Under the pieces are notes generated by a model that was not told where the DNA came from, did no database searches, and saw nothing but the letters and a program-made list of their open reading frames with translations. The translations under genes and the position numbers were made by a program. From positions 62,001-126,000 of the forward strand of contig NYWU01000034.1 of assembly GCA_002685255.1 (NCBI GenBank): a DNA stretch of 64,000 nt. Reading direction: 5' to 3'. Below are positions 21,648-39,229 of the stretch, in pieces. Each line of letters starts with the position of its first letter. Within the stretch, counting starts at the first letter, position 1. The stretch comes from Idiomarinaceae bacterium (GTDB lineage: Bacteria; Pseudomonadota; Gammaproteobacteria; Enterobacterales; Alteromonadaceae).

Positions 21648-21676
21648 AAAAAAGGAGGCATCAGCCTCCTTTTTTA
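21648..21676. terminator. Bidirectional intrinsic terminator
   Basis: AAAAAAGGAGGC / GCCTCCTTTTTT hairpin with a 4-base loop (21660-21663), between the convergent DUF1329 and dehydrogenase genes. The dehydrogenase stop codon (21674-21676) lies in its right arm. Confidence 0.85.
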
Positions 21677-22564: not shown

Positions 22565-22581
22565 GACTCTCTCCTTAATAA

Positions 22582-24116: not shown

Positions 24117-24257
24117 TTATTCACCTACTTTTACGGCATGTTTGCCGATTATTTTACCTTAAATTAGACATAAATCCGAAAAAACGGTATAAACATATAG
24201 GTAGATTACTTTTTAATCGTTTCTGTTAAATTTTTATAATCGAATAGGGTTTGATTA

Positions 24258-24611
24258 ATGAGCAAACTGGATAAAGATAAAGTTCTCGCAGATTACACCG
24301 CAGCTTACAAAAAAGCACATGGTAAAGCCCCTTCAATTGAGGCGAAAAGCGGTTGGTACAGTGTTAACGGCGGTAAGAACGTTCGTTTAGCGCAGCTCGC
24401 AGAAGAAGCTGAAACACTGACTGCGGATCAAGGTGCAACACCGGCTAAAAAAGACAGCAAACCCAAAGCTCCAGCGAAACCCAAGTCTAAGCCGGCCGCT
24501 AAAAAAGCAACGGTTAAATCAGGCGGTAAAGGCGGACTTACTGCAAAAGAACTGTGGCAGCAAAAGTTAGCCGAGAAATCGGGCAACTGTCGTTTGCCGC
24601 GCGGCTCTTAA
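24258..24611 (+). CDS. Lys/Ala/Pro-rich small basic protein, unknown
   Basis: 117-residue protein I cannot name. Residues 1-50 form a compact part (KDKVLADYTAAYKKAHGKAP, then a tryptophan-containing SGWYSVNGGKNVRLAQL). About 60-95 is a low-complexity KPKAPAKPKSKPAAKK linker, and a short GLTAKELWQQKLAE tail follows. The linker resembles those of histone-like DNA- or RNA-binding proteins. It stands alone between a divergent Nif3 gene and a terminator, so it has its own promoter in the AT-rich 140 bases upstream. Confidence 0.75.
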   Translation: MSKLDKDKVLADYTAAYKKAHGKAPSIEAKSGWYSVNGGKNVRLAQLAEEAETLTADQGATPAKKDSKPKAPAKPKSKPAAKKATVKSGGKGGLTAKELWQQKLAEKSGNCRLPRGS

Positions 24612-24626
24612 TGCTATTTATTGAGC

Positions 24627-24657
24627 AAAAAAACCAACCTCAGCGGTTGGTTTTTTT
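24627..24657. terminator. Intrinsic terminator, probably bidirectional
   Basis: CCAACC (24634-24639) and GGTTGG (24645-24650) around a TCAGC loop, flanked by seven A and seven T. It ends the Lys-rich small gene and the convergent minus-strand gene. Confidence 0.88.
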
Positions 24658-24672
24658 ATATAAAACGATGAA

Positions 24673-24924
24673 TTACAAGACGTCTGGGTTACGCCCCGCT
24701 ACCCGTTCAATCGGCACTTTAATTTTGCGATAACGATAAACTATAAATTCTTCGCGTTTAAAGCTTATTAACTCAGCACCAAAGTCAGCTTGAGAGACTA
24801 AATACGAGCCATCTTCATTCTGTTGTTTTACAATACCGAGTTTGCCGCAATGTGGGCCTCGTTTAACAAAAATGGTCTGACCGTTAATGCGCGGATTGTT
24901 ATAGGAAAACGTCGGTCCTGCCAT
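24673..24924 (-). CDS. Small protein of unknown function (83 aa)
   Basis: I do not recognise the family. The 83-residue product has no membrane segment or signal peptide. It contains NGQTIFVKRGPHCGKLGIVK followed by a strand-rich stretch, which looks like a small beta-barrel (KOW/SH3-like) module. That is a guess from pattern. A TTG start nine codons upstream is possible; the ATG here has a weak GAG ribosome site. It lies 81 bases after the last gene of the large minus-strand operon and could be read from it. Confidence 0.6.
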   Translation of the reverse strand: MAGPTFSYNNPRINGQTIFVKRGPHCGKLGIVKQQNEDGSYLVSQADFGAELISFKREEFIVYRYRKIKVPIERVAGRNPDVL

Positions 24925-25005
24925 AAATGACTCAACTACCTTAAAATTCAAAGATAGCTATTATATCGACCATTGCGCCATTTTCTACAATCATTTCTTA
25001 GATAC

Positions 25006-25557
25006 TTACTGTTTGCCAATGTAAAGTGTAATCTCGCCAACGGGCAAACCATACTTGTACATCTGGGTACGGTTGATCATGTTGTTTTCGTCGACCAAGT
25101 ACATCCAATCATCCAGTGATAGTGACATCATCTCTCCATCAACCTCGACCTGCAGCACGTACTCCCAATTCAGCGCATTACCAGCCGTTGTGCCCACCGC
25201 TACGCCCTCTACATCCGAGGCGCGGCCTTCATAAGTGTTAGGACCTGTTTTAGTCAGCTTCCAAATACGCTCTTGAGTGCGACCATCAGCATAAGTAAAC
25301 TGTTCATCGAGCGTTCCTTCATTGCCTTCCCAAGTGCCTTGCATCTCAACCGTGAAACGCTGAATGACCTTACCCGCATAGTCTTGTACCACGCCGTGTG
25401 CAACCAAATCACCTTTAAAGAACTCCTCCAGCTTGAGTGTCGGTTGTTCACCCTGGTAATCTTCAATTGCCGTCGAGCACGCCGTTAAGGAAAGCAGCGT
25501 TAGTATCGCCAACGTCCACTGAGTAATGCGCTTTCTACTGTTTCCCAATAAGTTCAT
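25006..25557 (-). CDS. DUF3833 family lipoprotein
   Basis: 183-residue lipoprotein. The signal peptide ends in a lipobox LTAC (cysteine near residue 27), so an envelope location is expected. The remainder is beta-rich with an alternating pattern (GDLVAHGVVQDYAGKVIQRF, WMYLVDENNMINRTQMYKYG) typical of DUF3833. Function is unknown, but homologs recur beside CFA-synthase/DUF1365/SDR clusters. The ATG follows a very strong GAGGAGGAAAGAG site, and the gene overlaps the preceding gene by 23 bases. It is the last gene of the ten-gene run. Confidence 0.82.
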   Translation of the reverse strand: MNLLGNSRKRITQWTLAILTLLSLTACSTAIEDYQGEQPTLKLEEFFKGDLVAHGVVQDYAGKVIQRFTVEMQGTWEGNEGTLDEQFTYADGRTQERIWKLTKTGPNTYEGRASDVEGVAVGTTAGNALNWEYVLQVEVDGEMMSLSLDDWMYLVDENNMINRTQMYKYGLPVGEITLYIGKQ

Positions 25558-26077
25558 CTCTTTCCTCCTCAAATCGTGACTCTGGCGACAACCAAATCGC
25601 TAAAAACTGCTCTGTGAACTGAGCGGACTCAATGACACCCAGTTGCTTTTCGCCTTGATAAAAAGCTGCGTAACCTTGCTCGGTCTCTCTCAATAACAGG
25701 CAGTCATCTTCTTTGATATCAGGCCACATGGCGGTAAGTTGATCGAGCCACTGCGATTGTTGCTTAGTGTTAAAGCCCAGCTTTTCCCATTCTTCTGCGG
25801 TTGTCTCAACTAAATCTTTAGCTTCGATATCGCGTAAATAACGCAACAGTAATGCTTTTGGCGTCTGCTTTCGTTCGCTCCAATTAAACTGACCATTGGG
25901 TGTATATAGATAAGCGTCGTACACGTCCCAAAACAACACACTCAAGCGCGTCTGGCCAACCTCTTGATACCCTTCTGCAATCGGTTTTTTACATACTTCA
26001 AGCGGTTGTGCTTCGACCTTCGCACTGGTACCCAACGCCACCACGGCACCAACAATTGCTATTAGCTTCGCATTCAT
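25535..26077 (-). CDS. Chalcone-isomerase-like periplasmic protein
   Basis: 180-residue protein with a signal peptide (residues 1-23, ending KVEAQP). The mature part has the bacterial chalcone-isomerase-like pattern: EVGQTRLSVLFWDVYDAYLY, then KALLLRYLRDIEAKDLVETT and a late YQGEKQLG strand. Plant relatives include fatty-acid-binding proteins, so lipid binding is a reasonable idea but not shown here. It overlaps DUF2878 by ATGA and the DUF3833 gene by 23 bases, so all three are coupled. Confidence 0.78.
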   Translation of the reverse strand: MNAKLIAIVGAVVALGTSAKVEAQPLEVCKKPIAEGYQEVGQTRLSVLFWDVYDAYLYTPNGQFNWSERKQTPKALLLRYLRDIEAKDLVETTAEEWEKLGFNTKQQSQWLDQLTAMWPDIKEDDCLLLRETEQGYAAFYQGEKQLGVIESAQFTEQFLAIWLSPESRFEEERDELIGKQ

Positions 26078-26583
26078 AGGACTAACCTCTCGTTAGGGCT
26101 TGCAGTCATTGCTCGGCAAAAAAACAACATAAAGATACCCCACACCACGGCGTAGACCAGCAGAGTCCACAACAAAGAGTCCGCTGTGCCAGCACCAAAC
26201 CCAATACCGACGTAATAGGTAAAAGGCCCAGAAATCGCGCCTAACAACGCCGCCACTAACGGCATTTTTGCTAGCCAATCAAGCGCGACGGGCGCCATAG
26301 CCGCAAAGCCGACCCATAACAACACAAGCCATAATGGGAAAACAGCGCCAACAAAATCGATGGCACCAACGCTGATGGCAATAGCCTCAAGCAATAGACC
26401 CACCGCAAATAGCTGCGCCATTTTTTTGATAGTGACTTGTGCGACCCAATAACTATATCCGAGCTGTGCTACAGCCAATAAGACCGTTAACCACAGATAA
26501 TCGTCACGCCCTGCAACGGCACTTAACCACAGCACGTTAAATAATACGAAGCTTACGATTTTGTGTTGTAGCGAAGTAGACAT
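26074..26583 (-). CDS. DUF2878 family membrane protein
   Basis: 169-residue polytopic inner-membrane protein, almost wholly hydrophobic with about five to six membrane segments and few charges. Composition and position in a CFA-synthase/chalcone-isomerase-like/DUF3833 cluster fit DUF2878. Role unknown. It begins 19 bases after the methyltransferase stop and overlaps the next gene by 4 bases. Confidence 0.75.
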   Translation of the reverse strand: MSTSLQHKIVSFVLFNVLWLSAVAGRDDYLWLTVLLAVAQLGYSYWVAQVTIKKMAQLFAVGLLLEAIAISVGAIDFVGAVFPLWLVLLWVGFAAMAPVALDWLAKMPLVAALLGAISGPFTYYVGIGFGAGTADSLLWTLLVYAVVWGIFMLFFCRAMTASPNERLVL

Positions 26584-26602
26584 AGTTCTCCTCGGTAGCG
26601 CT

Positions 26603-27835
26603 TTATGAAGTCTTAGACGCAGTGACTTGCACTACGGATACGGTTTTTTCTAAAAATCCGCCTTCGCAATAGCCAAAATAATAATTCCACAAGCGCGAAA
26701 ATCGCTCGTCGTAACCAAACTGTTCTAGCTCACCGGCACGAGCATTAAAACGATCACGCCAAGAGGCTAAGGTCTTGGCATAACTCTCGCCAAAGTCTCG
26801 CACATCGCGTACCACCAACGATGTTTCTTTCTTAAATAAATCGGTCATGAGAGAGAGCGACGGTAAAAAGCCGCCAGGGAAAATATGTTTCTGAATAAAG
26901 TCGACCGAGCGCGAGTAGCTATCATAGCGTTGGTCAGCAATTGTAATCGCCTGAATGCTCATTAAACCATTGGGCTTTAAACGATCATTACAAACTTGGA
27001 AAAAGCCTGGCAGATAACGCTTACCGACCGCCTCAATCATTTCAACTGATACTAATTTATCGTATTGACCCGTGAGATCTCGATAGTCTTCTTTCAGCAG
27101 CGTAATACGGTCTTCTAGTCCAAGTGATTTGATACGCTCCGCCACGTACTGATATTGTTCTTCCGAAATCGTTGTCGTCGTCACTTGGCAGCCATAGTTC
27201 TGCGCGGCAAAAATTGCTAAGCCGCCCCAGCCCGTACCGATCTCTAAAAGATGATCCGCGGGCTTTAACTCCAACTTCCGACACAGGCGATCCATCTTAT
27301 TGAGTTGAGCTTGTTCAAGTGTCTCATTGCCTTGTATAAATAAAGCACTCGAATACTGCATATTGGTGTCTAAAAAACGTGTGTATAGCTCATTGCCTAA
27401 GTCATAGTGCGCTGAAATATTCTTCTTGGCTTGCGCTTTATGATTTCGATTAGCCCAGTGACGGTATTTATTGATTGGGAATGTAAGCCAAGCCACTTTT
27501 CGCTCCAGCTTATCGAGCGCATCCATATTACGTGCGAACACTTGGATTACAGCGGTTAAGTTTGGCGTTTCCCACGCTTTATCAATAAATAATTCCGCGG
27601 CGCCAATGCTCCCACCGGTCAACAAGCGCACATAAAATTTAGCATCTAGTACATTAATTTCAGCACTTAAATCTGAAGACTTGTCGCCATAATGACCCAC
27701 CAGTTTACCTTGCTCTTTAACAACCAACTGGCCTTCGCCTAAGTGCGCAAGCAGTGCCTGTGTCATACGTTTCGCTGCTTTATCTATCCAGCCATAGGTC
27801 AGCGGTGCTTGCATTACAGTTTCGCCTTGAGACAT
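26603..27835 (-). CDS. Cyclopropane-fatty-acid-phospholipid synthase family methyltransferase
   Basis: SAM-dependent methyltransferase of 410 residues acting on unsaturated acyl chains of membrane phospholipids. An N-terminal lipid-binding domain (about 1-120) precedes the catalytic domain, with SAM motif I LEIGTGWGGLAIFAA and the family marker QKHIFPGGFLPS. HYDLGNELYTRFLDTNMQYS is the classic CFA-synthase signature. E. coli Cfa is 382 residues, so length is normal. Its place between DUF1365 and DUF2878 in an ECF-ChrR-linked locus resembles the methyltransferases (CfaA/UfaM types) of singlet-oxygen regulons, so the product may be a methylated or furan fatty acid rather than a cyclopropane. 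Confidence 0.88.
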   Translation of the reverse strand: MSQGETVMQAPLTYGWIDKAAKRMTQALLAHLGEGQLVVKEQGKLVGHYGDKSSDLSAEINVLDAKFYVRLLTGGSIGAAELFIDKAWETPNLTAVIQVFARNMDALDKLERKVAWLTFPINKYRHWANRNHKAQAKKNISAHYDLGNELYTRFLDTNMQYSSALFIQGNETLEQAQLNKMDRLCRKLELKPADHLLEIGTGWGGLAIFAAQNYGCQVTTTTISEEQYQYVAERIKSLGLEDRITLLKEDYRDLTGQYDKLVSVEMIEAVGKRYLPGFFQVCNDRLKPNGLMSIQAITIADQRYDSYSRSVDFIQKHIFPGGFLPSLSLMTDLFKKETSLVVRDVRDFGESYAKTLASWRDRFNARAGELEQFGYDERFSRLWNYYFGYCEGGFLEKTVSVVQVTASKTS

Positions 27836-27847
27836 CGATCGTACCCT

Positions 27848-28585
27848 TTATCTGGTCTTACTTTTTTTTGTTTTAGGGTGGTCATATATCGGAATACGTT
27901 TGATAAATAACTTCAACGCTTGCCAATAGATTCCACCGATTATTCGTAGCGCCATAAACGGCATTGTCTTCATTACGTGTTTTATCGACTTACGGTTTAA
28001 TTCACTCCTAGACAACTTCATGCCCGCTATAAACTCAGCCTTTTCACGACAGGCTTTTATCGTTACCGACAAGTTGTCATTCGGAGGTTCAATATACCAC
28101 CGATATCGCATGTCCATTGGATTAAATGGTGAGACATGAAACGCCTTGTCATGCTCAGGTATAGCATCACTCAAATCGATGAGATAATAGTGTCGTTCTA
28201 ACCAAGGCGTGTTGCTAACTTCTGCAAGAACATGAGTAAACTGGCTACCCTGTTGTAGAAAGTACAAATTGAGTGGCGAAAAATAAATTCCAAAGCTGCG
28301 CAGATTACCAACAAACCAGATTCGACCGCTAAGCGCTCGCGAGTTGAGCTGGTTCATTTTTTCGAGCACCGCCGTTTTTAAGTCGCCTGTTGAGCCCTTT
28401 AGGTAATCATTACGCCTAAACCACAGCGGCGCAAAGCCCCGGGTACTGAGCAAACGGCTTTGATGGTGTATATCATCTAACTCATCAAGGCACAGGCACC
28501 ATTGCATAAAACGGTAGTTAAATTGGTGATGTTTAGGGGTACGGCGCTCATGAAACACTTCCCCCCAATAAATACCACTATCCAT
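27848..28585 (-). CDS. DUF1365 domain protein
   Basis: 245-residue DUF1365 protein. Family features include IYWGEVFHERRTPKHHQFNY at the start, LRSFGIYFSPLNLYF and the FHVSPFNPMDMRYRW block. No enzyme activity is firmly established for the family. It is nearly always next to an FAD oxidoreductase and a CFA-synthase-like gene, as here. The first codons overlap the FAD gene by 8 bases, and the methyltransferase follows after 12 bases. Confidence 0.88.
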   Translation of the reverse strand: MDSGIYWGEVFHERRTPKHHQFNYRFMQWCLCLDELDDIHHQSRLLSTRGFAPLWFRRNDYLKGSTGDLKTAVLEKMNQLNSRALSGRIWFVGNLRSFGIYFSPLNLYFLQQGSQFTHVLAEVSNTPWLERHYYLIDLSDAIPEHDKAFHVSPFNPMDMRYRWYIEPPNDNLSVTIKACREKAEFIAGMKLSRSELNRKSIKHVMKTMPFMALRIIGGIYWQALKLFIKRIPIYDHPKTKKSKTR

Positions 28586-29852
28586 TATCTATATTTAGCT
28601 CCGGTGCAATCATATTAACTACGTCAATGGCGCTATGTACGCCGTCTTCATGGAAGCCGCTATACCAGTACGCACCACAAAAATAAGTATTGCGATGACC
28701 ATTGATCTGGTCTCTATCTTTACGAGCCGCCATTGACGTTGTGCTATATTGCGGATGTGCGTAGAACAGCTTTTTAATCACCTTGTCCGGATCAATAGCC
28801 TCGCTATTATTGAGCGTAACAAGGTAGTGCGCATGCGTCTTTAATCCTTGCAGTATATTCATGCTGTAAGTGACTGAACTGGGCTCGCGCTGCGCCGATT
28901 CACCGACTCTTAAACGATAGTTCCAACTCGCCCAGGCGGCTTTTCGCAGCGGCAATAACGCTCGATCGGTGTGCAATACAACTTCATTCAGCTTATATGG
29001 GATGCTACCCAAAATACGCTTTTCCTCATCGCTGGCATCTACCATTAGCGCCAACGCTTGGTCGCTGTGGCAAGCAAATACGACACGATCGAATTGTTCA
29101 ACATGACCATCGATGAAGGTCAATGATACGCCTTTTTCCGTGCGTCGAACCTCGGTAATATCTTCCGATAAACGTATACGGTGACTAAACTTTTCAGTTA
29201 GTTTAGGGATATAGGCACTCGAACCACCTTCGATCGTATGCCACTGCGGCCGGTTACTAATATCCAACAGACCATGGTTTAAGAAAAAACGTAAGAAAAA
29301 GCCCAACGGGAACTGGTAAGCATCTTTTATGCTTGAAGACCAAATCGCAGAGATCATCGGCAACAAATAAAAGTGGGCGACTTGCTCATCTAAATTCAGT
29401 GAATCAATAAACTCACCCAAGGTTACTTGGTCATTATCGCTGTTCTCTTGTGCAGCTTTTTTTGCCGCTTCGTTAAACGTGACAATGCCCTTTAATAACT
29501 TGTAAAACTTGGGTCGGAACACATTACGCTTTTGAGCAAACAAGGTGAGTAAGGTATGCCCGTTATACTCAAGACCTGACTCCGGATCTTGCACGCTAAA
29601 ACTCATTTCAGTATCGCGCCACGGCACGCCCACTTCAGTCATTAGACGTTTGAAACGCGGGTAGGTTCTGTCATTAAAGACGATAAAGCCCGTATCAACA
29701 CCCACGGGACCTGTTTTATCATCCACCTTAACGGTATTGGTGTGGCCGCCGATATAATCGTTTTTTTCGAATACCGTCACCTCATGATGGTCAGTTAAGT
29801 AATATGCCGTTGTTAAGCCTGCAATACCACTTCCTACAACTGCTATTTTCAT
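28578..29852 (-). CDS. FAD-dependent oxidoreductase (amine-oxidase/desaturase-like)
   Basis: 424-residue flavoprotein. FAD motif VVGSGIAGLTTAYYL is at residues 5-19, followed by VFEKNDYIGGHTNT. The family-specific GVDTGFIVFNDRTYPRF comes next, and the C-terminal flavin motif ends in FCGAYWYSGFHEDGVHSAI. It resembles the oxidoreductase of the Rhodobacter sphaeroides RpoE-ChrR regulon (RSP_1091 type), which takes part in fatty-acid modification. The start overlaps the SDR stop by one base (TAATG). Confidence 0.88.
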   Translation of the reverse strand: MKIAVVGSGIAGLTTAYYLTDHHEVTVFEKNDYIGGHTNTVKVDDKTGPVGVDTGFIVFNDRTYPRFKRLMTEVGVPWRDTEMSFSVQDPESGLEYNGHTLLTLFAQKRNVFRPKFYKLLKGIVTFNEAAKKAAQENSDNDQVTLGEFIDSLNLDEQVAHFYLLPMISAIWSSSIKDAYQFPLGFFLRFFLNHGLLDISNRPQWHTIEGGSSAYIPKLTEKFSHRIRLSEDITEVRRTEKGVSLTFIDGHVEQFDRVVFACHSDQALALMVDASDEEKRILGSIPYKLNEVVLHTDRALLPLRKAAWASWNYRLRVGESAQREPSSVTYSMNILQGLKTHAHYLVTLNNSEAIDPDKVIKKLFYAHPQYSTTSMAARKDRDQINGHRNTYFCGAYWYSGFHEDGVHSAIDVVNMIAPELNIDNG

Positions 29853-30577
29853 TAATTTCCTTTCGACATACGTTTACTGAGCGCTACTTGCCACGCTTGA
29901 GGCAGAATAGACATGGTTTTTAACATCAATGTAAAAATGGTAGGAAAACCGATATCCCGCTTGTTCTTCTCGATACCTTTACGAATACATTGAGAGGCAT
30001 AATCGACAGAAACTCGCATCGGCATTTCAAAATCGTTAGCATCAGTCATCGGCGTTTTAACAAACCCCGGTGAAATTGACAGTACCCGAATACCTTTAGG
30101 TGCAAGGTCCACTTCGAGTGAGCGCGTTATATAATGAATGGCTGCCTTCGAGCCACCATAAGCCTGCGCACGGGTGAACGGCAGGAGTCTCGCGAGACTA
30201 CCAACCAACACTAATTTTGAGCCTGGCTGCAATGTACGAAGCAATCCTTGCACGCAATTCATTGTGCCTTGCACGTTAACCGTAAATACCCGTTCAAATA
30301 ACTCCGCATCAAATGACTCGATGTCCAAGTATTCGCAAACACCCGCACTTAAAATCGCGACGTCGATTTGGTTGATAGAACCTAAAAGCTCAATCGTCTT
30401 TTCACGGTCAACCGTGTCAAATTGTAATGTTTCGACATAGTCAGGAAACTCGTCAGCCAACTTCTTCAGCGCATCGGCATTACGCCCACAAGCGATCACG
30501 TTGTGACCCTCACAGGCATAATCCGCTACTAATTGTTGACCGATCCCGCTGGTGGCACCGGTGATGAGCACTTTCAT
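29852..30577 (-). CDS. Short-chain dehydrogenase/reductase
   Basis: Classical SDR of 241 residues: cofactor motif ITGATSGIGQQ at 5-15, catalytic Ser in VLVGSLARLL and Tyr-x3-Lys in AYGGSKAAIHY. The substrate is unknown. The operon suggests a lipid or an oxidised lipid product. It overlaps the upstream SnoaL-like gene by 4 bases (ATGA) and the downstream FAD gene by one. Confidence 0.9.
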   Translation of the reverse strand: MKVLITGATSGIGQQLVADYACEGHNVIACGRNADALKKLADEFPDYVETLQFDTVDREKTIELLGSINQIDVAILSAGVCEYLDIESFDAELFERVFTVNVQGTMNCVQGLLRTLQPGSKLVLVGSLARLLPFTRAQAYGGSKAAIHYITRSLEVDLAPKGIRVLSISPGFVKTPMTDANDFEMPMRVSVDYASQCIRKGIEKNKRDIGFPTIFTLMLKTMSILPQAWQVALSKRMSKGN

Positions 30578-31008
30578 GATGACACCAGCCTTTGTTTAAT
30601 CTTATCAATAACGAACCCGACCAACGGCACATGCTCATATAGCATGGCGCCGAGATCGTAGTGATCTTCTTGCAGTCTTATTTTTTCGTCCTCAAACTGC
30701 ACATGTGATACGCCAGGTAGAATAATTTCGCGACCATTTGCCAACTTCGGATGCGAAAACCGCATTTGCCAACTCAAATAAGCTTGCTTGTCGCCAACAA
30801 CCTCGTCTTCAAACGTAAAATGACAGTATTCTACGTTTTCCATGGTGTGCTCAAAATATTTGCGCAAGTCGTCACGGCCCACGACTTGGTGAATAGGATC
30901 ATTAAAAGCAACATCATCATGATATATGGAGTCTAAATCATCGAGTTGATCAGTCGAAAATTCCTCGTAAAAGCTCTTTAGCTTTTCTACTAACTCTTTG
31001 TTATCCAT
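30574..31008 (-). CDS. SnoaL/NTF2-like small protein
   Basis: 144-residue cone-fold protein of the NTF2/SnoaL superfamily. It opens with a helix and then YHDDVAFNDPIHQVVGRDDL, with later strands such as HFTFEDEVVGDKQAYLSWQM. The superfamily includes isomerases, cyclases and binding proteins, so no reaction can be assigned. It is translationally coupled to the photolyase (8-base overlap) and the SDR (ATGA). Similar genes occur at this position in other CFA/DUF1365 clusters. Confidence 0.85.
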   Translation of the reverse strand: MDNKELVEKLKSFYEEFSTDQLDDLDSIYHDDVAFNDPIHQVVGRDDLRKYFEHTMENVEYCHFTFEDEVVGDKQAYLSWQMRFSHPKLANGREIILPGVSHVQFEDEKIRLQEDHYDLGAMLYEHVPLVGFVIDKIKQRLVSS

Positions 31009-32407
31009 TTTTCACCTGCTTAAACGTCGATAAGAATCGCTCACGTGCCTCGCTATGGTCGACTATCGGAGACACGTACCCCGTTTTGTGCTGTTTCAAA
31101 TACGAATGTGGCCAGTGAATATGTTTACTCGGTACATCCGCTAATTCTTTAACCCAAGTACGGATGTAGGTTCCGTCGGGATCAAACTTCTCACTCTGGC
31201 GAACAGGATTAAACACACGGAAATACGGCACCGCATCAGTGCCGACCGATGCACTCCACTGCCAGCCACCGTTGTTAGCCGGAAAGCTGCCATCTACCAA
31301 GTTACGCATAAAGTATTGCTCGCCTTTGCGCCAGTCGATCAGTAGATCTTTGACTAAAAAATTGGCGACAATCATGCGCAAGCGGTTATGCATCCACCCC
31401 GTCTCATTAAGCTGTCGCATGCCCGCATCGACGATAGGAAAGCCTGTGCGCCCGTCACACCAAGCTCGAAAATCCTCTTCAGCCTCTCGCCAAGGTAAAC
31501 CTTGAGTTTCGGTTTGATAATTTTCACCTCGGCTTAACCGCGGTTCATGAAACATAAGATGTTGGTAAAACTCACGCCACGCCACCTCCGTAAGCCAGGT
31601 ATCTGCGCCGGGCTCAAGTCCGTGTGGAAATTCGGGTGAAAAAGACGACAATGCACGCGCAACCGTTTTCGGTGCAATCGCTCCCATTTCGAAGTACGCG
31701 GACATCATCGATGTTCCGTCAACGGATGGCTTGTCGCGGCGCGCTTTATAGTCGTCAACCTGATGTTCAATAAATTGACCCAGTTTGCCCATGATGGCTT
31801 GTCGCCCGACGGGATAGTCTTGACTATTTTTACGTTCTAACGGACACGGCGGTAGCTCGTTGCTGATCGCTACGGTATTTTGGACGCTCCAAGACTGAGG
31901 GCTCCAATCACTGATTTTCGCAACCTCTTTACGCCAAGCTCGGTTGAATGGTGTGAACACTTTGTAGTAGCCGCCCTGCTTTGTTTCTACGTGTTCTGGC
32001 GCGACCAACAGGTTGCCGTCAAATAGCGTTAAGTCGATATCGCGTTGTTTAAAGCATGCATCTGCTTGCTTGTCTCGTTTAACCTCGTCTAGCGGATATT
32101 CGCGATTAGCGTATACCGCATGTACACCGTTTTCTTCGCAAAAGTCAGCGATTATTGCACCGCTTTGACTGAACCGTTCGATAACAAAGACAGAAAAACC
32201 GATGCCTTTATCTGCAAGTTCCTCTTTAAACGCCGCCAAATGGCGCCACCATAAATCAACTTTAATTGGCGCCCAATCATGCGCTTGCCAAGTTTGCTGA
32301 GGCACTAGAAATACAGCATATACTTGCTCATGATTTGCACATGCAGCCTCTAAAGCTGGATTATCAACGGTTCTTAAATCACTCCTAAACCAAACAACGC
32401 CGGCCAT
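31001..32407 (-). CDS. phrB: Deoxyribodipyrimidine photolyase
   Basis: 468-residue class I CPD photolyase that repairs UV-induced pyrimidine dimers using blue light. The N-terminal antenna domain begins VVWFRSDLRTVDNPAL. The FAD-binding domain carries DGTSMMSAYFEMGAIAPKTV, the DNA-binding NETGWMHNRLRMIVANFLVK block, and NNGGWQWSASVGTDAVPYFR. The last of these is the bacterial CPD photolyase signature. It starts 2 bases after the TudS-YbgA gene, so the two are co-transcribed. Confidence 0.95.
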   Translation of the reverse strand: MAGVVWFRSDLRTVDNPALEAACANHEQVYAVFLVPQQTWQAHDWAPIKVDLWWRHLAAFKEELADKGIGFSVFVIERFSQSGAIIADFCEENGVHAVYANREYPLDEVKRDKQADACFKQRDIDLTLFDGNLLVAPEHVETKQGGYYKVFTPFNRAWRKEVAKISDWSPQSWSVQNTVAISNELPPCPLERKNSQDYPVGRQAIMGKLGQFIEHQVDDYKARRDKPSVDGTSMMSAYFEMGAIAPKTVARALSSFSPEFPHGLEPGADTWLTEVAWREFYQHLMFHEPRLSRGENYQTETQGLPWREAEEDFRAWCDGRTGFPIVDAGMRQLNETGWMHNRLRMIVANFLVKDLLIDWRKGEQYFMRNLVDGSFPANNGGWQWSASVGTDAVPYFRVFNPVRQSEKFDPDGTYIRTWVKELADVPSKHIHWPHSYLKQHKTGYVSPIVDHSEARERFLSTFKQVKNG

Positions 32408-32409
32408 AA

Positions 32410-33345
32410 TTACAACCCATATCTCAGTTTTAAATCTTCAGGGTATGGTGTGACATACCACTGTTCAGCTAAATATTCGTTAGGGAACTCTCGCAGATAA
32501 TGGCGAATCAGCGTCAGTGGCGCCATCAGAGGTAACGTGCCATCATGGTAATCGAGTATCAACTGACTCAATTCCTGTTTCTGCTGTTTATCTAAGTACT
32601 GTTTAAAATAACCTTGAATATGCTGCAGAACATTCGTGTGATTACGTCTTGAGGCCGGTTTACTTAATGCACCCATCACGCGCAAAATATAGTGTTGGCA
32701 GAAAGCTTCATCAATTGATTTTGCCTCACCCACGTCACGTCCCAAGGCGCGGTATTCGGCCTGATTATGCGCCATGAGGATAAGCTTTGCTTGAGTATGG
32801 AACTTAAGCAATGCGGCTTTGTTTAACGGGTGCGCTAACGACTTCCAACGACCATATAAAAACACACGTAAAACAAAATTTTCGCGCAGATGTGGATCAT
32901 TGAGACGCCCGTCCTCTTCTAATGGGAGTGCAGGCTCTAGCTGATGCAAGCGTTCAGCAAATAATCCCATTGCTTCTTTACGTGCGCTACCTGTCTTAGG
33001 GTCATATAATTTTACACGCTCCATGCCACAACTAGGCGATTTAGCACATAAGACATAACCTGATAGATCCGCTAACTTGGGTTTTACTTTGTCCGCGAAA
33101 TACTTGAGCGATTCAGTAACGTCTTCGCCGGTTTTAGGGATGACTGCGCGAACTTGCTCATCCTTATACTCTAAACGAATGGTTGGACGCGGTACTGGCA
33201 ACCCGATACCGACTTCCGGGCAAAATTTAACAAACTCGACATGCTTAGCCAGCTCATTTTCGCAAAAGGGTGAACGCTTGTGACCCCCATCGAAACGTAC
33301 TTCATCGCCTAGTAAACAGGCGCTTATTCCAATTTTTAGGCGCAT
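32410..33345 (-). CDS. DUF523 (TudS-like) and DUF1722 (YbgA) fusion protein
   Basis: 311-residue two-domain protein. The DUF523 part (about 1-150) has the conserved cysteines in IGISACLLG, VKFCPEVGIG and CAKSPSCGM. In TudS these hold an iron-sulfur cluster used for 2-thiouracil desulfuration. The DUF1722/YbgA part (about 185-305) follows, with LMAHNQAEYRALG and EQWYVTPYPEDLKLR. The ATG one codon after the open frame begins is preceded by TGGAG. Fusions of these domains are common beside photolyase genes, but the link to photorepair is unexplained. First gene of the ten-gene run. Confidence 0.85.
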   Translation of the reverse strand: MRLKIGISACLLGDEVRFDGGHKRSPFCENELAKHVEFVKFCPEVGIGLPVPRPTIRLEYKDEQVRAVIPKTGEDVTESLKYFADKVKPKLADLSGYVLCAKSPSCGMERVKLYDPKTGSARKEAMGLFAERLHQLEPALPLEEDGRLNDPHLRENFVLRVFLYGRWKSLAHPLNKAALLKFHTQAKLILMAHNQAEYRALGRDVGEAKSIDEAFCQHYILRVMGALSKPASRRNHTNVLQHIQGYFKQYLDKQQKQELSQLILDYHDGTLPLMAPLTLIRHYLREFPNEYLAEQWYVTPYPEDLKLRYGL

Positions 33346-33377
33346 CAAAACTCCATTTATTTACAAGCTTATAATAC

Positions 33378-33383
33378 ATTATA
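33378..33383 (-). promoter_or_regulatory. Candidate -10 element for the TudS-photolyase operon
   Basis: On the minus strand TATAAT lies at 33383-33378, 33 bases before the start codon. The expected -35 position has only a weak AGCAAC. No GATCC-type ECF -35 is present on this strand in the intergenic region, so the head of the operon may use the housekeeping sigma factor. Confidence 0.35.
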
Positions 33384-33459
33384 GATATTGTTGCATGGGT
33401 GTTGCTATCTAACATAACGGACTTATAGCGAAAAAGGTTTGATTAAGTTATACAAATTT

Positions 33460-33485
33460 AGATCCAAGCCGAATAGACATGCGTA
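33460..33485 (+). promoter_or_regulatory. Candidate ECF-type promoter of the LON-domain gene
   Basis: AGATCC (33460-33465), a 16-base spacer, then CGTA (33482-33485). This resembles the site upstream of the ECF sigma gene: both share GATCCAA and a CGTA -10 core. TGATCC-like -35 elements are known for RpoE-ChrR-type sigma factors. Confidence 0.45.
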
Positions 33486-33527
33486 AAGCATGTTAAATCA
33501 ACCCAATATTCAGGATAGTTGTATCGT

Positions 33528-34106
33528 ATGGATAAAGTGCAGCGTTTACCTCTATTTCCGTTAACGGCGCATGTGATGCCGAACGGAAAGCTCAAATTGC
33601 GCATTTTCGAACAACGCTACACACGGTTAGTGAAACAATGCATGGCAAATCAAAGCGAATTTGTGGTGTGCATGTTTGATCCCGGTATCGACAAATATGA
33701 TTCTGAATACATTCTGCCTTTTGGCACTGCGGTCACTATTATTGACTTTGAAATGCTTAACGATGGCTTCTTAGGCATCACTGTGCAAGGTGAACGCCGA
33801 GTTCAAATAAAACATCATGAATTCGAGGAGGATGGTCTTCGAGTCGGTGACGTTGAAGTACTCCCTTTTTGGCAGCACACACCAATTACGGATGAGGTTG
33901 CCGTGCTTAAAGAACGCCTTGAAGAAATTTATGGTGTTTACCCAGAACTCGGTGATTTGTATGATGAAAAACCGTTTGAACAACTCGATTGGGTGTGCCA
34001 GCGTTGGCTCGAAATTTTGCCACTCGACGTTCACACAAAACAAGAGTTAATTAAATCGCAATCAAGTGAGCAAGTTGCTGATTATCTGCTAAACTTGGTT
34101 ACGTAA
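33528..34106 (+). CDS. LON substrate-binding-domain protein
   Basis: 192-residue stand-alone LON N-terminal domain protein without the ATPase or protease part. The family start LPLFPLTAHVMPNGKLKLRI and FEQRYTRLV are clear, as is a later VQGERRVQI. Such proteins may bind unfolded or oxidised proteins, but their function is not settled. An in-frame TTG three codons upstream is possible; the ATG was chosen for its fit with the family. It is co-directional with the sigma factor and diverges from the photolyase operon. Confidence 0.85.
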   Translation: MDKVQRLPLFPLTAHVMPNGKLKLRIFEQRYTRLVKQCMANQSEFVVCMFDPGIDKYDSEYILPFGTAVTIIDFEMLNDGFLGITVQGERRVQIKHHEFEEDGLRVGDVEVLPFWQHTPITDEVAVLKERLEEIYGVYPELGDLYDEKPFEQLDWVCQRWLEILPLDVHTKQELIKSQSSEQVADYLLNLVT

Positions 34107-34122
34107 CTTTTTTGAGATCGAC

Positions 34123-34151
34123 TGATCCAAACTTAAACTTGTTCTCGTAGT
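34123..34151 (+). promoter_or_regulatory. Candidate autoregulated ECF promoter of the sigma factor gene
   Basis: TGATCC (34123-34128), a 17-base spacer and CGTAGT (34146-34151), followed by the sigma factor start about 75 bases on. TGATCC is the -35 core used by RpoE of Rhodobacter sphaeroides and relatives, which autoregulate with ChrR. Confidence 0.6.
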
Positions 34152-34226
34152 TAGATATACGAACTAACAACAATAGCAGGTCTAGTTATGCAAACGGTGA
34201 CATCTCATACTTCACAACGGGGAGTT

Positions 34227-34808
34227 ATGACCACATCCCAGCAGGACACTGCAGAAAAAGCTGCGCAACTTTTGGCTCAAATTGCTGAAACGCGTAGCCG
34301 TCAAGCGTTCAGTGAATTGTTCTCACATTTTGCGCCCAAGCTTCAGGCTTACGGTACGCGTCAGTTTGGTAACGAACAAACCGCGATGGATCTTGTGCAA
34401 GAAACAATGACTAACGTATGGCACAAGGCTCATCTATTTAAGGCCGATAAGGGCTCACCCTCAACGTGGATCTTCACAATCGCGCGTAATATTCGATTCG
34501 ACTTATTAAGAAAGAATAAAAAGCGCAAAGATGATATAAGTGCAGATGAACTTTGGCCGATTTTGGCTGAACAGAATGATAACCTAGATGACGATTACGC
34601 GTTGGATCAAGACATTCTGTTGCAAGAGATTTCTCACTATTACGGTCAGTTGCCGGATGCGCAACGTATCGTGGTAGAAAAAATTTATGTCGAGGGTAAG
34701 TCGCAGCAAGAAGTTTCCGACTCTCTTGGAATTCCATTAGGCACGGTTAAGTCTCGTACGCGCCTTGCATTAAAGAAATTGAAAGAGTTAATAGTTGAGC
34801 ATGATTAA
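34227..34808 (+). CDS. ECF RNA polymerase sigma factor, RpoE-ChrR (ECF11-like) type
   Basis: 193-residue ECF sigma factor. Region 2 is visible as MDLVQETMTNVWHKAHLF and TWIFTIARNIRFDLLRK. Region 4 carries the helix-turn-helix SQQEVSDSLGIPLGTVKSR. The frame opens 13 codons upstream, but this ATG has GGGGAG 4 bases before it. The gene overlaps chrR by 8 bases. The pair matches the group in which ChrR holds the sigma factor inactive until singlet oxygen or organic hydroperoxides release it. Likely targets are its own promoter and neighbouring genes. Confidence 0.9.
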   Translation: MTTSQQDTAEKAAQLLAQIAETRSRQAFSELFSHFAPKLQAYGTRQFGNEQTAMDLVQETMTNVWHKAHLFKADKGSPSTWIFTIARNIRFDLLRKNKKRKDDISADELWPILAEQNDNLDDDYALDQDILLQEISHYYGQLPDAQRIVVEKIYVEGKSQQEVSDSLGIPLGTVKSRTRLALKKLKELIVEHD

Positions 34809-35481
34809 GTCACATCCATCTGAAGCAATTTTGTATCAGTACGCTTCAGGCGACCTTAGTGCGTCAATGACATTAGTTGTTGGTACACATATTGATATGT
34901 GCCCTATTTGCAAACGAACAGTTTGTGAAATAGAGGAGGATTTATGTAACAAGCATTTGGATAGCCTTGTTGAAACGATTTGCGCCCCTTCTAAAGGTGC
35001 CATGTCTAAGACCCAGTGCGACCAAATGTTAGAAGCGATTTTTAACTCTCAGGCCAAGCCTGCCGCTCAACGCGAAGATTTGATTAGTCTTGAGGGTCGT
35101 CGCTTTAATTTGCCTACAACGTTGGCGCATAACGCTCATCGTATCGGGGAGTGGACGCATTTAGTGGGTAAGCTATGGAGAGCACCGGTTGATTTGTCGG
35201 ATGATGGACAGACCAATTTAATTTATATGGAGCCTGGTGCTCAAGTACCGGAACATACTCACAAAGGGCAAGAAGCGACACTGGTCATCGATGGCGTATT
35301 TAATGATGAGCACGATGCTTATTATGACGGTGATTTCATCTTGTTGGATGCGGATCGTAAGCATACGCCTCGCACTGCGACGGAAGACTGTTTAACGCTT
35401 GCGACACTCGATGCGCCGTTATTCTTTACGTCGGGTATTAGTCGCCTGCTCAATCCATTTAGTAGTTTATTTTTTCGCTAA
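34801..35481 (+). CDS. chrR: ChrR-type zinc anti-sigma factor with cupin domain
   Basis: 226-residue anti-sigma factor. The N-terminal zinc anti-sigma domain has His5 and His30-x3-Cys34-x2-Cys37 (HIDMCPICK). The C-terminal cupin (about 105-215) carries metal-ligand histidines and glutamate in PEHTHKGQEATLV and a later DADRKHTPR. This two-domain layout is that of R. sphaeroides ChrR, whose cupin domain is needed for the response to singlet oxygen. The start ATG overlaps the sigma factor stop, giving coupled synthesis. Confidence 0.9.
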   Translation: MIKSHPSEAILYQYASGDLSASMTLVVGTHIDMCPICKRTVCEIEEDLCNKHLDSLVETICAPSKGAMSKTQCDQMLEAIFNSQAKPAAQREDLISLEGRRFNLPTTLAHNAHRIGEWTHLVGKLWRAPVDLSDDGQTNLIYMEPGAQVPEHTHKGQEATLVIDGVFNDEHDAYYDGDFILLDADRKHTPRTATEDCLTLATLDAPLFFTSGISRLLNPFSSLFFR

Positions 35482-35504
35482 CGTTTTAAGCGTAACGTGA
35501 CAGA

Positions 35505-35530
35505 AAAGCCCGAGCTATTGCTCGGGCTTT
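35505..35530. terminator. Bidirectional intrinsic terminator, chrR/ihfA
   Basis: A 10-base perfect stem (AAAGCCCGAG / CTCGGGCTTT) with a 6-base loop. The ihfA stop codon (35515-35517) falls in the loop, so the convergent genes share one compact terminator. Confidence 0.88.
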
Positions 35531-35811
35531 GTGTTTTCTACGCGGCTTTTGAATTTTTGCCCGGGTTTAAAGCTCACCACTCGGCGAGCTGAAATAGGAA
35601 TATCCTCACCCGTTTTCGGATTACGGCCTGGGCGCTGATTTTTTGTTCGAAGTTCAAAGTTACCAAAGCCTGATAACTTGACCATTTCCCCCGACTCTAA
35701 AACAGAACGTATTTCTTCAAAAAACGCCTCTACTAAATCCTTAGCGTCTTGCTTACTTACACCGTACTTGTCAAAAAGTACCTCAGCGAGTTCTGCTTTA
35801 GTCAGCGCCAT
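35515..35811 (-). CDS. ihfA: Integration host factor subunit alpha
   Basis: 98-residue DNA-bending protein that pairs with IhfB. Nearly colinear with E. coli IhfA: start [15 protein letters not shown], core [11 protein letters not shown], and the beta-arm [20 protein letters not shown] including the intercalating proline. Located right after pheT (3-base gap), as in E. coli. Confidence 0.97.
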
Positions 35812-35814
35812 ATC

Positions 35815-38199
35815 CTAATCCCTCAAGGTTGCATCAAACTCCGACTGTAACGTCGATACTAGCTTTTTCATAATGCCGTTTATTTCGGTTTCTTCAAGCG
35901 TCTTTTCATTATCTTGAAGTGTGACAGAAAGAGCTAAACTACGTTTACCCTCTGGCAGGTTATCACCTTGGTAAACGTCAAATAAGTTTAGGTCAATCAA
36001 CTGATTAACGCCAATGTTCTTCAACGTGGTTAACACCTCACCCGCCGCGATGCGTTCATCTAAAACAATCGCTAAGTCTCGGCGGATACTAGGAAACCGT
36101 GATACAGGTTGAGCTGATGGAATGCTATGTTGGTTAATCGCATCAAGTTGCAATTCGAACACGAAAGCACGTTGATTGAGACCGAATGTTTTCTCAAACT
36201 TGGGGTGTAAGGCGCCCATATAGCCAATGCACCGCTCACCACGGTATATCGCAGCCGATTGCCCTGGATGAAGCGCGCTATGCTCGCTAGCGACAAAACG
36301 AACATCACTGATGTCAGATTTTTTCAACAAGGCTTCAACATCGCCTTTTACATCAAAGAAATCAACTTGACGCTCCTCCGCAGACCAATGTTCACCATAG
36401 GCTTTACCCGAACGCACACCAGCAAACATCGGTTGCTGAATCACACCATTTTCAGCCGCTTCATCAGGAATAAAGCGTAACCCTGTTTCGACAAAGGCTA
36501 AAACTGATTGCTGACGCTTTTGGTTATGCGCTAGCGCATTCAAAAGCCCCGGCCACAAACTTAACCGCATTGATGACATTTCCACCGAAATAGGATGAGG
36601 TAATGTTAACGATGCACTTTCATCAAATAACGCCGCCTGATGTTTGGGATCGACGAAGCTATAAGTGATTGCTTCTTGATAACCCCGTTCGATCATTGCA
36701 TCAACTAAACGATGTGTGCTGACTAACGATTCCTGTTGTGGGCGCATGCGTAATTGTGCGGCAGGCGCAGCAGCTTGAATATTGTTGTATCCAAATACAC
36801 GTGCAACTTCTTCGATAAGATCTTCTTCAATAGCAATATCAAAACGATAAGTCGGCACTTTGACCAGCCATTTCCCAGCTCCTACTTTTACCTCAAAACC
36901 AAGACGCTCGAGAATTTCAGTCACGCGGGCAGCTTCTATATCAATTCCTAACACACTCGCGAGCCGTGCTGCACGTAGCGTCACCTCAGCTGGCTTAGGT
37001 AGATGCTCGTCTGACTTCGCTTCGACGATAGGACCCGCCTCGCCACCACAAATTTCAATCAATAACTGTGTTGCGCGCTCCATGGCTTGGCGTTGCAATT
37101 CTGGATCAACACCGCGCTCATAACGATGAGACGCATCCGTGTGTAAACCAAAACGGCGTGCTTTACCTAAAATCGCATCAGGTGCAAAAAACGCGCTTTC
37201 GAGGAAGATATGTTGACTTTCTCGTGTTACACCACTTTCGAGCCCCCCGTAAACGCCCGCCATAGCCAATGCCTGCGTGTCATCAGCAATAACTAGCACA
37301 TCGTCATCGAGTTTCACTTCTTGTTCATCCAATAAAGTTAAGGTCTCACCTTTATTGGCATAACGCACATGCACATCGCCTTGAACGCGGTCAAGATCAA
37401 ATGCGTGCATCGGGTGGCCGAGCTCCAACAATACATAGTTGGTGATATCAACCACAGGATCAATGCTACGAATACCACTACGACGCAGTTTCTCGCTCAT
37501 CCATAATGGTGTCTGCTGCTTAACGTCGACATTTTTTACTACGCGTCCCAAGTAGCGAGGACATCCAACCGGCGCATCAAGGTGAATCGCTTTAGTGTCT
37601 TCGAGGGAGGTTGCAACCGCGTCTACTGTCGGCTCATTCACATCCAGGTTATTCAGGACACCCACCTCACGCGCAATGCCACGAATACTCAGGCAGTCAC
37701 TGCGGTTGGGTGTTAAATCAATATCAATACTTAAGTCATCCAGACCCAAATATTCGCGGTAATCTTTGCCGATGGGTGCGTCTGAAGGTAGCTCAATGAT
37801 ACCGTCGTGATCATCAATCAGACCCAGCTCTTTAAACGAGCACAACATACCATGCGATGGATGCCCGCGCAGCTTTGCCTTCTTAATTTTGAAGTCACCC
37901 GGTAATACCGCGCCAACCTTAGCGACCACAACCATTAAATTCTTACGGCAGTTTGGGGCACCGCAAACGATATCAAGCAATTCATCGTCACCTACATCGA
38001 CTTTAGTGACCTGCAACTTATCGGCATCTGGATGAGGACCGCATTCAACGACTTTACCAACGACAACAGTATGAAAGTCTGCTGCAACCGGTTCTAAACC
38101 ATCAACCTCAAGGCCAGCCATGCTGAGTTGCTCACTCAGCACTTCACTAGAAATGTCTGGATTGACCCAACTTCTTAGCCAATTTTCACTAAATTTCAT
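35815..38199 (-). CDS. pheT: Phenylalanyl-tRNA synthetase beta subunit
   Basis: 794-residue beta subunit of the alpha2-beta2 enzyme that charges tRNA-Phe (E. coli 795). Domains in order: tRNA-binding OB fold (about 40-150), B3/B4 editing region with the PRYLGRVV and NYVLLELGHPMHAFD motifs (about 215-370), B5, the catalytic-like core, and a C-terminal ferredoxin-fold anticodon-binding domain with FPSIRRDLAIV. Follows pheS by 13 bases. Confidence 0.97.
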   Translation of the reverse strand: MKFSENWLRSWVNPDISSEVLSEQLSMAGLEVDGLEPVAADFHTVVVGKVVECGPHPDADKLQVTKVDVGDDELLDIVCGAPNCRKNLMVVVAKVGAVLPGDFKIKKAKLRGHPSHGMLCSFKELGLIDDHDGIIELPSDAPIGKDYREYLGLDDLSIDIDLTPNRSDCLSIRGIAREVGVLNNLDVNEPTVDAVATSLEDTKAIHLDAPVGCPRYLGRVVKNVDVKQQTPLWMSEKLRRSGIRSIDPVVDITNYVLLELGHPMHAFDLDRVQGDVHVRYANKGETLTLLDEQEVKLDDDVLVIADDTQALAMAGVYGGLESGVTRESQHIFLESAFFAPDAILGKARRFGLHTDASHRYERGVDPELQRQAMERATQLLIEICGGEAGPIVEAKSDEHLPKPAEVTLRAARLASVLGIDIEAARVTEILERLGFEVKVGAGKWLVKVPTYRFDIAIEEDLIEEVARVFGYNNIQAAAPAAQLRMRPQQESLVSTHRLVDAMIERGYQEAITYSFVDPKHQAALFDESASLTLPHPISVEMSSMRLSLWPGLLNALAHNQKRQQSVLAFVETGLRFIPDEAAENGVIQQPMFAGVRSGKAYGEHWSAEERQVDFFDVKGDVEALLKKSDISDVRFVASEHSALHPGQSAAIYRGERCIGYMGALHPKFEKTFGLNQRAFVFELQLDAINQHSIPSAQPVSRFPSIRRDLAIVLDERIAAGEVLTTLKNIGVNQLIDLNLFDVYQGDNLPEGKRSLALSVTLQDNEKTLEETEINGIMKKLVSTLQSEFDATLRD

Positions 38200-38212
38200 G
38201 TTCGCCGCCCTC

Positions 38213-39229
<1,017 letters not shown>

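Follow-up and report, generated by a model that had tools for sequence, protein, structure and literature searches.

A predicted ECF11-type promoter inside the photolyase gene of a gammaproteobacterial RpoE–ChrR locus

Described RpoE–ChrR systems and the locus in Idiomarinaceae

A core regulon of the ECF sigma factor RpoE and its anti-sigma factor ChrR was predicted across bacteria by Dufour et al. 2008 (as related in PMC5507510 and PMC6852236; these and the other papers cited here are drawn on in part). Here, a locus of this type is described from an Idiomarinaceae bacterium (assembly GCA_002685255.1, contig NYWU01000034.1, positions 62,001 to 126,000 of the forward strand; this whole stretch of 64,000 nucleotides is referred to as the window). 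At positions 25006-35481 of the window, the listing of open reading frames (ORFs) contains ten minus-strand genes that face a plus-strand LON-domain gene and an ECF sigma/ChrR pair. Judged from its sequence, the locus is a gammaproteobacterial RpoE–ChrR (ECF11) photooxidative-stress module, and its sigma factor most likely drives the eight genes from the SnoaL-like gene to the DUF3833 gene out of a predicted promoter within the photolyase gene, phrB. The module is largely the known core regulon of Rhodobacter and Shewanella oneidensis, and the part that looks new is its regulation, i.e., the ECF11-type site inside phrB.

In S. oneidensis, the RpoE2 regulon comprises rpoE2-chrR, a LON gene (SO_1987) and an operon of ybgA (i.e., rudS), phrB and cfa (SO_3386, SO_3384 and SO_3379), all of which resemble genes of the window, and the RpoE2-induced promoters have the form TGATCC...CGTAAT (PMC4336711). 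However, the S. oneidensis operon lies apart from rpoE2-chrR, as judged by locus tags, and its promoter is placed before ybgA; in the examined text of that paper, the terms "internal promoter" and "coding" are absent. In Rhodobacter sphaeroides, as in the window, an ECF–ChrR pair stands beside a row for furan fatty acid synthesis (UfaD, UfaO, further genes, a lipoprotein and a short-chain dehydrogenase (SDR), RSP1091-1087), and furan lipids are needed for the turnover of ChrR, whereas the photolyase and UfaM (RSP2143-2144) are encoded at a separate locus (PMC7380195, PMC6852236). The sibling locus L204, from Cereibacter johrii, differs from the window by an MFS-like gene within the row, with no SnoaL, rudS, LON or DUF2878 gene labelled.

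Pseudomonas species offer two further comparisons. The P. syringae pair PSPTO_1043/1042 is an ECF–ChrR pair that responds to singlet oxygen, and that genome shares the phrB-to-cfa row and core-regulon orthologues with the window; however, the reported binding upstream of phrB lies inside the neighbouring gene PSPTO_1122 rather than within phrB (PMC5507510). The Pseudomonas PplR/PmlR (class II LitR) operon also contains phrB, an SDR, a flavin adenine dinucleotide (FAD) oxidoreductase, UfaM and hypothetical genes, and its phrB and ufaM are light-induced, but the regulator is a B12-dependent protein of the MerR family (PMC9758184). RudS, which removes 4-thiouridine from tRNA, is a TudS-DUF1722 fusion that occurs with a photolyase in light-responsive operons, as in the window, although the published example is under LitR and not ECF–ChrR (PMC11417400). 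The UfaM of Halomonas sp. YLGW01 is gammaproteobacterial like that of the window but was characterised singly, outside an operon context (PMC12089945).

A literature search of open-access scope, with the lists of Dufour et al. 2008 outside its coverage, found no description of a promoter inside a photolyase gene. A preceding analysis by a model that saw only the letters and the ORFs (the sequence-only reading) had called the locus an incompletely described system. This is too strong, because published work already covers the regulon with its LON gene and its ybgA(rudS)-phrB-cfa operon (PMC4336711), as well as UfaD, UfaO and UfaM (PMC7380195).

A putative sigma-factor site inside phrB

Both strands of all 64 kb were scanned with a weight matrix whose training set combined 5 sites published for S. 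oneidensis with 17 chosen by eye from exact matches in other loci and included neither a phrB site nor a window site. The four best ECF11-type matches all fall inside this locus (Table 1). The phrB site, TGATCCCGACGGAACCTACATCCGTACT, overlaps codons F408-T417, encodes part of the peptide FDPDGTYIRTW and sits 176 bases before the start of the SnoaL-like gene. Among the other matches is one before the LON gene, whose S. oneidensis counterpart SO_1987 has such a promoter (PMC4336711). An assembly-wide regulon search, restricted to exact patterns, gave 3 matches to TGATCC-N16-CGTA in the 2.77-Mb assembly, including the phrB site, and 1 match for the reversed-pattern control.

On the minus strand of the divergent intergenic region, the best match reaches 0.2 bits (the scan covered ECF11-type sites), and no ECF11-type site precedes rudS, with which the minus-strand row begins (3.4 bits). 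Transcription of all ten genes from an ECF11-type promoter in this region was set aside on the 0.2-bit score. The sequence-only reading had missed both the lack of an ECF11-type site before the first minus-strand gene and the predicted lipid-gene promoter inside phrB.

The site was compared in 93 genomes. Of these, 87 come from the order, where 210 had a match, and 6 from the class, and the site was counted as present when the 3' part of phrB contained a match of 13 bits or more. The counts leave out photolyase matches below 450 bits, second copies from a genome already counted and class loci absent from the genome table; among the last are L131, L079, L112, L140, L129 and L148, which lack the peptide, and L143, which scores 8.7 bits. 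Where phrB adjoins a SnoaL gene in a genome with ChrR, 45/47 genes carry the motif, compared with 0/6 where SnoaL is next without ChrR, 0/20 where ChrR is present without SnoaL next and 1/20 with neither (Fisher value 6e-23 for the contrast, uncorrected for kinship). Within family f245, both ChrR genomes carry the motif and the six without ChrR lack it (one of the six has no SnoaL next), and in f170 ten phrB genes without a following SnoaL carry no motif despite ChrR. In ChrR genomes where SnoaL lies away from phrB, intergenic sites are found before SnoaL in L341 (17.5 bits), L340 (15.8 bits), L203 (15.3 bits), L188 (15.0 bits), and L335 and L336 (13.6 bits).

One alternative is that codon usage and the conserved peptide FDPxGxFIRK between them simply happen to produce the phrB motif, with the ten genes read from one promoter before rudS. 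The motif does fall exactly on the conserved peptide, and rudS genes away from chrR often have a strong intergenic site of their own (19.0 bits in L352, 18.7 in L351 and 18.0 in L334). Random synonymous recoding, using each gene's own codons, would by chance yield 11.1/47 sites of at least 13 bits in the SnoaL-adjoining genes with ChrR; however, 45 are observed, while the remaining photolyases show 1/46 against an expected 2.2 (the tail probability of this test takes no account of kinship). For the window phrB, 2% of synonymous recodings score as well as the actual gene. In addition, the three lowest codon entropies among 135 conserved columns of the 47 genes belong to the motif codons CGT, TTT and GAT, i.e., R, F and D are almost always written with these codons, whereas codon choice varies at nearby residues of this peptide. 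The fourth-lowest entropy is that of a CCA codon located 12-14 bases past the C of CGTA; the window lacks that proline. Among 52 intergenic sites, 81% have an A one base before the place of this codon.

The residue that follows IR bears on the same question. In the 45 motif genes it is K in 34, N in 3, I, M and T in 2 each, S in 1 and F in one, and 44/45 of its codons begin with A, so that K, N, I, M, T or S at this place supplies the A of CGTA. In contrast, the 48 compared genes without the motif have R (15), K (10), H (7), Q (7) and others. Together with the 0.2-bit score of the divergent intergenic minus strand, these observations make an origin of the motif from peptide and codon usage alone unlikely. 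We consider it likely that the motif is a selected sigma promoter, embedded in several gammaproteobacterial families within the codons for a conserved peptide of the photolyase, linking DNA repair to the furan-lipid operon and constraining both the codons and the residue after FDPxGxxIR. Written in the codons of a conserved peptide, such a promoter would give this stretch two codes.

Across these 47 loci, sense sites scoring 13 bits or more occur in 45/47 phrB genes, 0/47 UfaD, 0/47 SnoaL, 2/45 SDR, 1/34 CMAS, 2/26 DUF2878, 2/47 rudS and 1/19 LON genes, and antisense sites in 1/47 phrB genes. This strand preference, and the dependence of the motif on SnoaL being next, argue against a silent or pausing site that the ECF sigma binds without starting a SnoaL transcript. 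Such sites have a precedent in P. syringae, where many PSPTO_1043 sites from chromatin immunoprecipitation are coding or antisense, with unproven promoter function (PMC5507510), but for phrB this explanation appears very improbable.

A quick tree of the 93 photolyases, built with the motif columns removed, needs 10 changes to account for the 45 motif rows, and 6 or more of these fall on starred branches. Of the 5 independent pairs with good support, an average of 4.7 have the motif on the side with SnoaL+ChrR, 0.3 do not differ and none shows the reverse; when SnoaL alone is taken as the trait, the motif follows it in 3.4 of the independent pairs on average.

Several observations weigh against an embedded promoter serving a furan-lipid operon. 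The genomes are related, with only 5 well-supported independent pairs, and the sign test gives p 0.06, a value limited by the small number of pairs; the window photolyase itself is a long branch on the tree. The two of the 47 genes without the motif are those of G344 (12.7 bits, at another place in the end of the gene) and G990 (4.7 bits). Conversely, G1141, which has neither ChrR nor an adjacent SnoaL, carries the motif at 19.7 bits, and G883, without ChrR, retains an 11.7-bit site. phrB is not alone in containing such sites, as 20/34 DUF1365 genes of the SnoaL+ChrR group also have sense sites of at least 13 bits. Before SnoaL genes away from phrB, low scores occur in ChrR genomes (L187 12.2, L184 11.8, L189 10.0, L365 9.7, L186 7.0 and L111 3.7 bits), and L128, with a MerR gene and no ChrR, reaches 13.5 bits, the other loci without ChrR having 11.0 bits (L122) or less than 10. 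The window rudS lacks a conserved sigma site. On the lipid side, the UfaO homologue is only 27% identical to the Cereibacter protein, and R. sphaeroides can make furan lipids without RSP1087-1089 (PMC7380195).

The site inside rudS (33004) was rejected as a second conserved promoter, because relatives lack it: the compared rudS genes have no counterpart at that position. rudS and phrB may be read from this window-specific site or from another promoter.

By analogy with R. sphaeroides, singlet oxygen or a related oxidant would free the ECF sigma factor from ChrR, a zinc protein. The sigma factor would then act at two plus-strand promoters, its own and the LON gene's, and at the phrB-embedded promoter on the minus strand, from which the SnoaL, SDR, UfaD, UfaO, UfaM, DUF2878, chalcone-isomerase-like and DUF3833 genes would be transcribed. 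UfaM would methylate, UfaD desaturate and UfaO add oxygen, giving furan fatty acids in phospholipid, while RudS would strip the near-UV target 4-thiouridine from tRNA and PhrB would repair pyrimidine dimers. If true, phrB would be a natural double code, with a regulatory signal inside a catalytic gene that is kept where this gene precedes the lipid operon in a genome with the sigma factor, and is nearly always absent elsewhere. Five genes without characterised relatives would then share a promoter with the furan-fatty-acid enzymes, which would provide a handle on them, and three synonymous codon changes would directly test how the lipid genes are switched on.

Co-occurrence with ECF–ChrR and with other regulators

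Conservation was followed in a sample of 229 genomes spread over the class. Operon genes in relatives were labelled with profiles grown from the window proteins, and the MerR-B12, two-component (response regulator/histidine kinase), MFS, DUF1295, DUF3108, Blc, desaturase and glutathione peroxidase labels were assigned by eye to clusters. DUF1365 was found in 68 of the genomes, DUF2878 in 41 (40 over cut-off) and ChrR over cut-off in 8. All 8 of the latter have DUF1365 on the chrR contig within ~6.3 kb, compared with the base rate of 68/229; the chance of drawing 8 DUF1365 genomes is ~4e-5, uncorrected for kinship. Within the taxonomic order of the window, the same 13 genes form one co-directional row in L190, L193 and L199, and this recurrence in three other genomes puts the arrangement beyond chance. 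Most of the 13 are rowed in L192, L110 and L196; in other ChrR loci of the order (L185, L191, L195 and L198), only ECF–ChrR, with or without LON, is labelled within the fetched stretch. The sequence-only reading was right to see an ECF–ChrR photooxidative module, and with DUF1365 near chrR in 8/8 ChrR genomes this module is conserved with ECF–ChrR.

Named chrR loci were collected with a single query, the R. sphaeroides ChrR, and the best 80 loci were kept; nearly all are titled Rhodobacter-type, and R. sphaeroides itself is not included, Cereibacter johrii standing in for it. In the 64 named ChrR loci that span 14 kb or more, again nearly all of Rhodobacter type, UfaD is present in 61/64 and UfaO in 61/64. 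One locus, L241 (CP059262.1), comes from a metagenome-assembled genome titled Exiguobacterium profundum, a title that looks wrong, since the locus is a Rhodobacter-type chrR locus with 66% identity to R. sphaeroides ChrR. Among the 345 genomes of the family of G318, nothing nearer than 70% to R. sphaeroides ChrR was found.

The same gene set also occurs with other regulators. Regulators within 6 kb were counted in a class set of 64 loci with DUF1365. Four DUF1365 places (G024, G176, G189:C19 and G209) are not among the fetched loci. MerR-type genes neighbour 9 of the 64 loci and two-component genes 16, and 34 have none of ChrR, MerR-type or two-component genes; the window is counted among the 34, because its chrR lies 6.2 kb away. 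Thus, the earlier description of the module as self-contained does not hold in general. Given these counts and the published LitR/PplR control in Pseudomonas (PMC9758184), the operon might answer light through another regulator, with ECF–ChrR as a bystander. However, no MerR-type or two-component gene is labelled at positions 20001-40000 of the window, and DUF1365 lies near chrR in each of the 8 ChrR genomes, which leaves little probability for a bystander role. One genome, G162, has a MerR-phrB-SnoaL row without ChrR and without the motif, and in its family, that of G454, ChrR was found in 0/109 genomes. Two-component genes, seen near DUF1365 in L069, L073, L074, L134, L141, L144 and others, are a third kind of neighbouring regulator besides ChrR and the MerR type.

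Gene products and minor features of the locus

The ten minus-strand genes are separated by gaps of 19, 12 and 2 bases and otherwise overlap at six junctions (by 38, 4, 8, 1, 4 and 8 bases, with longest starts), and the ECF and chrR reading frames overlap as well. The extent, the gaps of at most 19 bases and the six overlaps given by the sequence-only reading agree with the ORF listing, as do its families with Pfam for all 13 genes. Above the Pfam cut-offs are, on the minus strand, DUF3833, Chalcone_3, DUF2878, CMAS, DUF1365, Amino_oxidase, adh_short, SnoaL_2, both photolyase domains, and 2-thiouracil desulfurase with DUF1722, and on the plus strand the LON substrate-binding domain, ECF sigma regions 2 and 4 and the ChrR cupin.

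The best solved relative of the sigma factor is R. sphaeroides RpoE (2q1z, E 5.2e-31), and ChrR scores 174.7 bits against TIGR02451 (cut-off 124.5). Residues H7, H32, C36 and C39 (ZAS) and H154, H156, E160 and H190 (cupin), which we take to be the zinc ligands, are unchanged in nine ChrR sequences, including that of R. sphaeroides. An RpoE-like sigma factor, a ChrR over cut-off and, by sequence match, an autoregulatory site of the TGATCC/CGTA type place the pair with ECF11/RpoE–ChrR. In Vibrio cholerae, ChrR has been reported to mediate the blue-light response (PMC5241685, PMC11976125).

Both domains of the rudS product exceed their Pfam cut-offs (140.6 and 138.1 bits), as in the RudS fusion, and the protein matches the TudS structure 6z92. 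The phrB product matches E. coli photolyase (1dnp) with E 7e-114 and has both photolyase domains, as a class I cyclobutane pyrimidine dimer (CPD) photolyase does; against PRK10674 it scores 502.3 bits, slightly below the cut-off of 506.

In R. sphaeroides and R. palustris, furan fatty acid synthesis is carried out by UfaD, UfaO and UfaM (PMC7380195), and E. coli with the Halomonas sp. YLGW01 UfaM yielded an intermediate of a furan fatty acid (PMC12089945). Homologues of all three are encoded within one unit in the window. UfaD adjoins DUF1365 in 59/64 class loci, and both UfaD and the CMAS gene adjoin it in 49/64. Beside chrR, the locus of Cereibacter johrii (ChrR identity with R. sphaeroides 95%) has the order FAD enzyme, DUF1365, MFS-like, DUF3833 and SDR. 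In L204/L205, the MFS-like, DUF3833 and SDR proteins have 401, 186 and 245 amino acids, and the L205 DUF1365 ORF has 249, compared with published sizes of 402 (RSP1089), 186 (RSP1088), 245 (RSP1087) and 250 (RSP1090) amino acids (PMC7380195). These sizes and this order fit RSP1090-1087, so that DUF3833 holds the place of RSP1088.

The CMAS gene could be taken for a cyclopropane synthase gene. The histidine of the LLHTIG motif of E. coli Cfa is presumably residue 266, with a role in the active site, and in its column the window protein has Q, as do 78/78 CMAS proteins encoded beside DUF1365, while 27/31 other CMAS proteins have H. A conserved E is followed by A in the window protein, as in 76/78 of the CMAS proteins beside DUF1365. 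On these active-site letters the cyclopropane synthase reading was set aside: by its sequence the product is a methyltransferase of UfaM type and probably no cyclopropane synthase. The column of the E. coli cysteine (S in the window) is non-discriminating, with C in 8/78 beside DUF1365 and in 12/31 of the others; against NF008686 the protein scores 286.9 bits, below the cut-off of 400.

The sense motif within DUF1365 genes is found at about base 200-300, where the peptide resembles EP...L.QRI (L324, L316, L343, L371, L196, L318 and others), with 0 antisense sites. Many, though not all, of the 20 sense sites are at this place; the best score in the window DUF1365 gene is 9.5 bits.

Characterised relatives exist for five of the ten minus-strand products (RudS, photolyase, UfaD, UfaO and UfaM), and none was seen for the SnoaL-like, SDR, DUF2878, chalcone-isomerase-like and DUF3833 proteins. 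The sequence-only reading had five or more uncharacterised proteins acting on oxidised or modified lipids; the count of five genes without a characterised relative stands, but the lipid function is better read as furan-lipid synthesis by three genes. The model of the DUF3833 protein (predicted local distance difference test, pLDDT, 94) is a ten-stranded barrel that matches barrel-type PDB entries (BFA1, phycobiliprotein lyase) and, more weakly, lipocalins. The Chalcone_3 model (pLDDT 91) has as its top match the plant fatty-acid-binding protein AtFAP1 (4doo) and also matches chalcone isomerases. These predicted folds suggest that both proteins may bind lipids. No paper treating DUF2878 and DUF3833 together was found in the literature search. 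In the class sample, DUF2878 often accompanies a second CMAS-family methyltransferase and DUF1295, DUF3108-like and Blc-type lipocalin genes (L040-L059 and others), a group that stands apart from, or is joined to, the UfaD-UfaO-UfaM row.

Table 1. Genes and predicted ECF11-type sites of the locus, in window coordinates
Feature	Position	Strand	Basis
rudS (TudS desulfidase fused to DUF1722/YbgA)	32410..33348	-	Pfam, structure 6z92, PMC11417400
phrB, class I CPD photolyase	31001..32407	-	Pfam; E. coli photolyase 1dnp
SnoaL-like protein, first gene 3' of the putative embedded promoter	30574..31008	-	Pfam SnoaL_2
Short-chain dehydrogenase (SDR), RSP1087-like place in regulon	29852..30577	-	Pfam adh_short; 25% to L204 SDR
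UfaD-like FAD desaturase	28578..29852	-	38% over 417 amino acids to Cereibacter johrii L204
UfaO-like DUF1365 protein (putative furan oxygen insertion)	27848..28585	-	DUF1365 237.7 bits; 27% over 232 amino acids to L204
UfaM-type S-adenosylmethionine (SAM) methyltransferase, probably not a cyclopropane synthase	26603..27835	-	Active-site residue signature
DUF2878 protein	26074..26583	-	Pfam
Chalcone-isomerase-like protein	25535..26077	-	Pfam Chalcone_3; predicted fold
DUF3833 beta-barrel protein, RSP1088 place	25006..25572	-	Pfam; predicted fold; 33% to L204
Stand-alone LON substrate-binding-domain protein	33519..34106	+	Pfam
ECF11 (RpoE-type) sigma factor	34188..34808	+	R. sphaeroides RpoE 2q1z
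ChrR anti-sigma factor	34795..35481	+	TIGR02451 over cut-off
Predicted ECF11-type promoter inside phrB (TGATCC-N15-CCGTACT)	31157..31184	-	15.6 bits, best of 64 kb
ECF11-like site inside rudS	32977..33004	-	14.9 bits; candidate for driving phrB
Predicted ECF11 promoter of LON-ECF-ChrR unit	33460..33487	+	14.9 bits
Predicted ECF11 promoter of ECF-chrR (autoregulation)	34123..34151	+	14.6 bits; spacing one base longer than usual

Outside the operon, a plus-strand ORF at 24258-24611 encodes a Lys/Ala-rich protein of 117 amino acids with no Pfam match, and a minus-strand gene for a DUF3912 protein (24673-24951) lies directly downstream of the operon.

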